The notes under the pieces are model-generated. The model was not told where the DNA came from. It did no database searches and saw only the letters and a program-made list of their open reading frames with translations. The translations under genes and the position numbers were made by a program. Of a DNA stretch of 64,000 bases, positions 10,596 through 19,459 are shown piece by piece. Within the stretch, counting starts at the first letter, position 1. Every line of letters starts with the position of its first letter. The stretch is from Bimuria novae-zelandiae CBS 107.79 (taxonomy: Eukaryota > Ascomycota > Dothideomycetes > Pleosporales > Didymosphaeriaceae): positions 474,011 through 538,010 of the forward strand of contig ML976664.1 of the NCBI GenBank assembly GCA_010015655.1, read 5' to 3'.

Positions 10596-13500
10596 TCAGT
10601 GCAGACAGAATGTCCGCTCTTGCACGCCAGGTAGAGACAGTCCTTCTCCCTTCATGATGCCGTGCACGTAGCACTCGCCTACCAACTTCCACAAGTCCTT
10701 CTTCTCTTTGCCCTTCTTACTTTTCTTACTCCTTGCTATTGTCTTACTCCCTTCGTTCTTCTCAGCCTGCTTGATCTCACCCTTCCCCTCCTTCACCCTC
10801 CCGTTCTCCTCCCCATCTGCAACCTTCTTAACCTTCTTAACCTTCTTAACCTTCTTAGTCTTTCCACTCTTCTTCCTCTTCTCACTCTTCCTCAACACAA
10901 ACGGCACACACCCACCCTTCATAACACCCACGACATCACCGACCTTGTTCAACCCCGGCACAACACCAACAAGCCCGCGCTGAGTAACAACAAACCTCCA
11001 CCCCGCCAACGTCCCCCTAAGACACGCCACATAGCTCTTATGCGTCTGCGCACTCCTCGCCGAACCATATCTCCGCGCCCCAGCACCAGTACGCTCAGCA
11101 AGCCATGTCCGAAACGCAATATACGACTTCTTCATATCCATGACGCCGGTGCCCGCCGCGCGCGGAAACGGCGCCGCGGCAATGGGAACTTTCCACTTGA
11201 GCTCGGCGCGGGGACCGACGGCGCTGCTCAGCACGCTGGTCTCGATCATGGCGTCAAGCTCTGCGAAGTAGGCGGGCCATTCGGACTCGGTGTTGGAGTG
11301 CGTGCTGATGGCGATGATGGTGTCGACTTCATAACCGGCGACACTGAGCTCGTCAGACCCCGGGCCCAGCGCGATAGAAGGCGCCTGCGGTCCAGAAGCT
11401 GAGAACGCGATGTCGGTGTCTAGAGAGTCATGGAGGCCGACGGGACGCTGGGCCGTCCAGTCGGGCACCCAGGAGGGGAATCTGGCGCCGAGGTGTGAAC
11501 CTGAGAGGCCGGCGCGGTAGAGGAGCTGCATGCCCCTGTCCTGGCGAACAAACGCTTGGGCGAATTTGAGAACGAGGGTTGCGAAGGGGGTCTTGTAGTC
11601 TGGCTCGAAGGAGTCCTCGTTGCCGTCGGACGCGAGGCCGACGAGTGCGAAGAGTCGGTCTCGGCTCAATGTGCTTTCGGCATAGCGGAAGTGCTCGAGC
11701 AGCATTAGGAGACTCCATCGGTACTGCCTTGCTTCCCACTCTCGCTGCTCGGTCAGCTTGATAAATGGCTCCCATGCAGCCCTCAGTTCGCCGATACCTT
11801 CCTCGTACTCTGCGATCTGCATCTCGCGGTCCACGACTTGTAGTCCGGCATGCAGTTCTGTCCAGTCGATCAGCCACTTACCGCACACGAGCTTGACGTT
11901 CGGTGAGGCGACGACTTCCTGAACGATCCATGCGCGTCGAAAGTACGGCAGCGAAAAGAGAGCCTTGACCGAGGCCCACACGGGAGAATTTAAAAGCGGT
12001 ATGCTCATGCTCTTGTTGTTCCAGGAGTCTGGGATACGTGGAAGACCGGCGGGCCAGGTGGCCTCGTTGACTGTTTCATCGCCTTTGGCTCGCCGATCTT
12101 CAAGAACCGCTTTTGATCGTACCTGCATGAGCATCTCAAGGGCCTCGACTATGACGGCGTCACCCTCGGACAAGAACGCATACGCGCACTCGCAGGCTTG
12201 GAAGATGGACGGCATGAGGCGGATTTGCTGCGCTTTCTCGTCGTCGTCGGATTGGTTGATGCATACAGCGTCTGCCCAGATCATGACTGGCTGCTCTCGT
12301 TGACGAATTGCCTGCAGGGCTTTATGAAGTGAGGAAGTGATGGGAATTAGTCCGTCGGGTGTAAGTATCTCCTCGGTGCGCTGGTCGGAACCCCAGACAT
12401 AGGAGAGGGCTAGGAAAGTGTCTGCATGGAGGCAGTCGATGTGGTTGAGTACAGCTTGAAGAGGTTCTCCTTTTGGACCTGGAAGAAGGTACAGGAGACG
12501 CATATAGCCGGGTAGCAAAGCCTTGTAAGTGTAAACGTCTCTTGTCCCGGTAGTGAAGACTGGGCCATCTTGACTTTGCCAGACGCCAGAGGTTGTGGAT
12601 TGCGTCCACGGCAGGTATACATCGCACTATCTTGCATTAGCTCCGGTAATTGGGGGCATACAGCCGAGTTATTATACGTACGTGTACTTTCCCCTCGGTG
12701 CTACGAGTGCTATCCGAGCTCTCGCACGGCGCTGGGTCATCTTGATGAGTAACGGCTCTGTAAAGCACAAGCTGCATCTGATCTTCTGTGTGAGTGAACT
12801 CTCCCTGTTCGAGAGATACTGGTGAGTCTAGAAACTCATCTTCGCCTTCTGTCGGTGATGTTACGTCGTCCTCATTCCACTCGTACTCACTGTCACCGCC
12901 CTCATACAAAGGGTCCAACGAGGCAGCGAGTAACCAATTCTTCCTAAAGCTCAGCATGCCCTCTTCAACCAGGTACCACGGGTCAACGTGAATTCTGACT
13001 CGGAATCCAGTCTCCGAGTACGCTTTCGCGACCTGGACAAGAACACTGACGTGGTGAATCTCATCGTCCGCATTCGATGACAGTTTGAGATGCACCATCT
13101 GTTCGACTTGATTAGCATTGGGAGTAAGATCCAGTGATAATATTCTTCTACCCACCCTTTCAAGCCATTTTGCCTGCATGGTGAATCTTCCAGCATCACC
13201 TCCAGCACTTATGATCACGTCCACATGATATGTGGGAAAATTCTTTCTCAGCCTCTCCTGCCAATCCAGGGTTTTGGAGACACCGTGAGTAGTGACGAAT
13301 TTAGTCATACGGCTTCTTGTTTCCTGGTCCGTCAGCGTAAACGGTGCCGCCTTGCTCTCCTTCTTAAGGTACGTATGGCCGGCTCTCTCGCGCAGATCAC
13401 TCGTCCAGTCTCGCTCTGGATCGAAAGTCGACCCTAGGTGAACTTGCAGAAGTCGCGCGACCTATGTTTTGTTAGGTCGTCGTCGTTTTATGTGTTCCCA

Positions 13501-19459: not shown

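Follow-up and report, generated by a model that had tools for sequence, protein, structure and literature searches.

A GHKL ATPase-HET fusion protein of Bimuria novae-zelandiae as a candidate fungal immune receptor

In a 64,000-nucleotide stretch of contig ML976664.1 of the dothideomycete Bimuria novae-zelandiae CBS 107.79 (assembly GCA_010015655.1, positions 474,011 to 538,010, forward strand), hereafter the window, we identified a single minus-strand gene whose predicted product couples a GHKL ATPase to a HET domain in one polypeptide. The predicted protein comprises three parts: an Hsp90/sacsin/NOV-type GHKL ATPase with its transducer, a large middle ending in a degenerate, nuclease-like NOV_C region, and a C-terminal cassette of a HET domain plus a barrel. 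As far as our searches show, this architecture is widespread yet undescribed in the literature searched, which makes the fusion protein a promising candidate for a fungal immune receptor of a kind not yet described. The gene is organized as follows, with positions being those of the window and the basis of each entry in brackets:

10596..19459, minus strand: the whole gene, one gene of seven exons with a coding sequence of 8496 nt and 2831 residues (exon model and homologues)
19308..19459, minus strand: exon 1, with the start codon (model; N-terminus similar to homologue P0001)
15083..19249, minus strand: exon 2, encoding the GHKL ATPase, the middle (transducer) region, a long low-complexity stretch and the start of a second middle region (model, domain scan, alignment)
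14400..15032, minus strand: exon 3 (model; acceptor placed from homologues)
13927..14303, minus strand: exon 4 (model)
13513..13868, minus strand: exon 5 (model)
12682..13461, minus strand: exon 6, carrying the NOV_C-like region (model)
12627..12681, minus strand: intron 6, 55 nt, the junction between the ATPase and HET parts (model; P0001 and P0002 continuous across it)
10596..12626, minus strand: exon 7, encoding the HET domain and a C-terminal region labelled PF26639 in homologues (model, domain scan)

The introns are 58, 50, 96, 58, 51 and 55 nt long and all have GT-AG borders. The seven exons, intron borders and open frame recorded in a first-pass annotation of this DNA are retained, whereas its total of 8514 nt becomes 8496 nt, 18 nt less. 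For exon 3, the acceptor at 15017 was dropped for that at 15032, 15 nt earlier, because the latter yields ELIHAAFY, comparable to ELIRAAFY in P0001 and P0002. That annotation had also proposed a single gene and named a split near 12.64 kb as what would contradict it; homologues spanning the junction of the 12681-12627 intron instead speak for one gene. In the alignment, P0001 reads QHTLYLPWAQS and P0002 TLYLPWTQA against VHCDVYLPWTQS here, the same junction lying within one protein; its core is VYLPWTQS in the window protein, LYLPWAQS in the Kalmusia protein and LYLPWTQA in the Ascochyta protein. In the remaining homologues the linker at intron 6 is too divergent for alignment. A full-length query matched 18 proteins, of which 15 have SACS, PF27504, HET and PF26639 all listed, and its nearest named homologue comes from Kalmusia, a genus of the Pleosporales.

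To these 18 matches we added those listed for a query with the ATPase part of P0014 (120 of 1469), giving 123 database proteins and, with the window protein, a set of 124; region profiles were made from 17 sequences. Among the matches listed, 84 of the 123 database proteins have a HET domain behind the same ATPase and in the same order. This widespread occurrence rules out a private or chance fusion. Counting the window protein, a HET domain is found in 85 of 124, the order ATPase, NOV_C-like region, HET holds in all 85, and the 82 in which all seven regions were detected share a single order (82/82). Several copies may be present in one genome, as in Zopfia rhizophila CBS 207.26 (P0012, P0037 and P0069 among the matches listed). 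The 39 HET-less proteins look like two sorts, namely cut models within HET clades and real HET-less lineages. Additional labels on some matches (alcohol dehydrogenase, GH16, RTA1, Zn cluster) are taken as gene-model errors. Two NOV-type proteins of Verticillium albo-atrum (P0082, P0109) carry a precomputed label for PF00293, presumably NUDIX, which may mark another effector or a gene-model error.

At its N-terminus the fusion carries a GHKL ATPase. Hsp90 and sacsin SR1 are among the listed solved structures closest to the predicted fold of this part, and at least 122 of the 124 proteins retain the characteristic E, N, D and lid residues. The SACS (PF25794) match scores 35.4 bits against a cut-off of 32.8, with P0001 at a sub-threshold 25.9 in the same library. 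The diagnostic elements are:

19180..19206, minus strand: N-box ELIQNADDN, residues 66-74 (E66 in 123, N70 in 123 and D73 in 122 of 124)
19099..19119, minus strand: G1 variant DCNEVGF, residues 95-101 (N97, E98, G100 and F101 in 124 of 124)
18988..19020, minus strand: lid motif GEKGIGFKSVF, residues 128-138 (glycines in 123, 123 and 124 of 124)
18427..18429, minus strand: Arg 325 in TASREEIES (arginine in 116 of 124)

Hallmarks of a Bergerat-fold ATPase are present, with the N-box E and N, a glycine-rich lid and a middle-domain arginine. Judged by spacing, N97 probably stands where Asp is usual, as described for sacsin. Arg 325 is the probable equivalent of Arg 380 of the Hsp90 middle domain, the Hsp90 of the same genome reading LSRETLQQ. 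Such a module may cycle ATP. The sequence boxes quoted for both the ATPase and the HET domain in the first-pass annotation recur in the predicted protein.

Between the ATPase and the HET domain lies a region that, from alignment and motif comparison, appears to be a nuclease-like NOV_C domain in degenerate form:

15577..17301, minus strand: low-complexity, rapidly changing stretch, residues 701-1275 (0-26% identity where alignable; missing in several homologues)
about 12952..13542, minus strand: NOV_C-like region, residues about 1886-2065 (alignment/profile)
13213..13215, minus strand: Ile 1978 where NOV_C has its lysine (YHVDVIIS here, YHLDVKTT in P0048)

The exon 6 frame gave no Pfam NOV_C (PF13020) match, and the HET-less P0102 and P0123 gave weak, sub-threshold ones at the aligned region. 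Where the active-site pattern [D/E]-x-[K/R] is expected, the window protein has Asp-Val-Ile. Of the proteins readable at this site, all 84 with a HET fusion have a broken pattern, and 22 of the 26 without HET have an intact one. Four HET-fused proteins (P0090, P0092, P0115 and P0079) keep the lysine but not the acid (ILVKTT or ILVKIT), suggesting that the motif decayed by different routes. The related literature, in the available text of PMC3710099, terms DUF3883 a novel REase (restriction endonuclease) domain.

The HET domain itself is complete:

11916..12416, minus strand: HET domain (PF06985 profile match)

With 101 bits it clears the cut-off of 22.5; it covers the profile from 1 to 146 of 146 and has the three motifs, in which 13 of 26 positions are identical in at least 79 of the 85 proteins. 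Identity of 15 homologues to the window protein (P0016 left out) is 42-70% in the HET domain and 27-59% in NOV_C. We take the accompanying PF26639 region to be the Het-6 barrel. A nine-base tandem repeat of 4.1 copies (window 10821-10857) encodes a lysine-rich KKV run in this C-terminal region and is not found in P0001. In the accessible part of PMC12881547, the HET domain alone is reported to be sufficient for killing on overexpression, and the fusion protein may likewise drive death through it. Two more HET genes are situated within 9 kb of the fusion's HET, at window 3167-4198 (minus strand) and about 8291-9502 (plus strand), the latter having its HET match interrupted by two TGA codons if no introns are assumed; the genome (77.4 Mb, 191 contigs) has at least 151 HET matches.

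Phylogenetic analysis separated the 85 NOV-HET domains from 30 other HETs of this genome by one branch (Shimodaira-Hasegawa-like approximate likelihood ratio test, SH-aLRT, 99); the 30 others were drawn from 48 genomic loci, with 18 dropped for lacking a long enough profile match or having more than two stops. The 48 HETs from the large ATPase clade that includes the window protein group together in the HET tree as well, as a single clade (SH-aLRT 96). Pairwise ATPase and HET distances correlate at 0.87 (best of 999 permutations 0.16), and 53 of 85 proteins have the same nearest neighbour in the two trees. On a hand-chosen subset of 45 of 127 rows, a single HET clade was not rejected by the approximately unbiased test (p 0.626), the constrained tree being 3.7 log units better. 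The HET tree tracks the ATPase tree, which, together with this outcome, leaves the idea that the fungal fusions swapped effectors repeatedly unsupported. When 10 of the 120 listed HET matches were added as tree rows to probe for stand-alone HETs, P0239 and P0241-P0243 fell outside the smallest set holding every NOV-HET, and the short frames P0178, P0203, P0229, P0233, P0235 and P0236 fell inside it. Since 69 of the 120 listed HET matches also carry the NOV_C-like region, many of them are probably parts of fused genes. The simplest, though unproven, reading is a single fusion followed by co-inheritance with decay of the nuclease motif, in which case the HET would have been gained before the motif was lost. 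The unconstrained ATPase tree, on the other hand, places HET-less clades among the HET clades. Few independent events underlie the association of motif loss with HET, the independent-pairs test having too few contrasts.

The nearest defence relative of the fusion is TmtA of PADLOC-DB, the models of which we take to represent the Tiamat antiphage system. The likeness is in the N-terminal SACS-type ATPase and the next region (E 1.6e-69) and spans just 30-568 of the 1302 profile positions (PDLC03972, best of 8 models) in a scan of the window protein that omitted exons 3-6; P0001, scanned whole, matched 27-568. The window protein is thus no full-length TmtA match, whereas the prokaryotic L014 reaches 27-1335 of 1486. 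It further differs in ending in a HET domain and in its broken NOV_C motif. A plasmid search returned 12 records with relatives, and the proteins and neighbourhoods of 11 were scanned. At their C-termini these have NOV_C (L015, L019, L020, L021, L023, L024), HNH (L014) or a helicase (L022); L016, L018 and L025 show no further Pfam domain, though in PADLOC L016 weakly resembles a type IV restriction enzyme (E 2.6e-5). Defence-type neighbours occur in 4 of the 11 neighbourhoods: L014 lies near a cytosine methyltransferase, L018 near a restriction endonuclease and L022 amid a methyltransferase and helicases, while the SACS + NOV_C protein L024 (Sulfuricurvum plasmid pSULKU01, 4228-10822) is preceded by a NERD-domain gene, lies immediately upstream of qatA, qatB and qatC and is possibly an accessory of this Qat island. 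The remaining 7 of 11 have no clear defence gene by name. These domains and neighbourhoods indicate a chassis with varied C-terminal partners and, at times, defence-like settings. On sequence comparison, the fusion shares its ATPase chassis with prokaryotic proteins that match the TmtA antiphage models and are often nuclease-like-ended. This chassis, the breadth of the family and the degenerate NOV_C had all gone unseen in the first-pass annotation.

Among eukaryotic proteins, the NOV-type proteins of HET-less fungi have the ATPase and middle regions in common with the fusion and mostly the NOV_C-like region too, but end at NOV_C with the active-site pattern usually kept (see above); the plant NOV-type P0018 shares the ATPase. 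The best published parallel found is the animal sacsin-DEATH fusion (available text of PMC3710099), which likewise has an Hsp90-like ATPase and a cell-death module in one protein; there, however, DEATH is N-terminal, whereas here the HET is C-terminal and there is one ATPase unit. Its authors propose that such fusions may drive cell suicide when unfolded proteins accumulate under stress, tying the fusion to stress and not immunity. Proteins with a HET domain and PF26639 are presumably HET-6-like, and the fusion resembles them in these two regions; the NOV-HETs nevertheless branch apart from the 30 other HETs of this genome. Fungal HET-NLRs (HET-NACHT-WD40), as presented in the accessible part of PMC12881547, also combine a nucleotide-binding switch with a HET effector, but have a STAND ATPase in place of GHKL, and the fusion has a C-terminal HET with no repeat sensor reported. 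Pfam scans run on the frames of exons 2, 3, 6 and 7 and on P0001, P0004 and P0014 reported no NACHT or NB-ARC domain, no DnaJ, HEPN or ubiquitin-like part and one SACS match, which sets the protein apart from both NLR/STAND proteins and sacsin. The earlier idea of an ATP-binding switch in cis with a HET effector agrees with the GHKL fold, the kept nucleotide-binding residues and the conserved HET. A literature search with subscription papers mostly outside its coverage found, among the records listed, no account of a HET + NOV/sacsin protein or a fungal Tiamat.

Taken together, we lean towards a one-protein sensor and killer, in which an ATPase-plus-nuclease chassis gained a HET effector, the nuclease decayed and the whole acts as a death-triggering switch. 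The ancestral chassis would have had nuclease-like or other C-terminal domains, as in prokaryotes and HET-less fungal relatives; the HET cassette would have joined behind NOV_C, probably once, with the NOV_C active-site pattern lost thereafter. In the resting protein the GHKL clamp would keep the HET cassette inactive, ATP binding closing or dimerising the GHKL module. A trigger, for which foreign nucleic acid or protein, an incompatible partner and misfolded protein are candidates, might be sensed by the middle of ~1,400 residues, perhaps by the catalytically broken NOV_C, and by altering nucleotide state or dimerisation might let HET domains meet and set off regulated cell death. The protein could thereby serve as an immune or allorecognition receptor. 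That it represents a further architectural type of immune receptor in fungi, separate from NLRs and stand-alone HETs and built on a GHKL ATPase of common stock with prokaryotic antiphage proteins, with HET having replaced the nuclease and the dead nuclease kept as sensor, is an extension that we offer tentatively.

Alternatively, the fusion might be a sacsin-style stress or protein-quality-control machine for misfolded clients, with the HET activated or signalling only when stress is overwhelming. The closeness of Hsp90 and sacsin SR1 and the proposed sacsin-DEATH response would fit this, but the DNA methyltransferase, restriction enzyme or Qat genes in 4 of 11 prokaryotic neighbourhoods (7 lacking them) and the missing sacsin parts make it unlikely. 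A nucleic-acid or mobile-element defence protein, whose NOV_C binds without cutting and whose HET is a non-lethal signal or scaffold, would agree with the NOV_C, HNH and helicase ends of the prokaryotic chassis, the REase designation of DUF3883 and AT-rich blocks close by in the window that resemble repeat-induced point mutation (RIP); we regard it as rather improbable, given that HET is less changeable than NOV_C and reportedly kills alone (PMC12881547, accessible part). That the plant NOV-type relative points to a developmental protein resembling NO VEIN, with HET retained for house-keeping, is very doubtful in light of the several copies in one genome, the HET-less lineages and the known place of HET domains in cell death. 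Two adjacent genes mistakenly joined are a highly unlikely explanation, homologues with ATPase and HET in one protein speaking against it: HET is missing from 39 of 124 models, some within HET clades, but the short ones there resemble cut gene models, the domain order recurs in 85 of 124, the junction aligns in the two nearest homologues and the trees of the two ends are concordant.

An ATPase switch with a death effector is a known kind of system; what is unusual in the sensor-and-killer reading is the switch. The available text of a review (PMC10197012) heads its section on HET proteins 'Mysterious players'. Here a probable switch of a well-studied ATPase fold is attached to the effector, making it testable by changes to the ATP pocket and the HET in one gene. 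If the reading is true, antivirus proteins of bacteria, the sacsin-DEATH fusions of animals and cell death in fungi would be connected through one chassis with exchanged effectors.

Elsewhere in this genome, an NOV-type paralogue (L017; G000:C35:337000-345500) has a C-terminal frame reading YYLEVKTTT; neither the HET nor the NOV_C-like profile matched in its 8.5 kb, and the lack of the latter suggests a more distant branch. A SACS locus on contig C48 was rejected as a close relative, as its TmtA match reaches just 56.4 bits and it is absent among the protein-search matches. Finally, the AT-rich blocks at window about 26001-34000 and 44001-56000 (34-46% GC, TpA/ApT up to 2.2, low CpA+TpG ratio) are as expected of RIP-mutated repeats.
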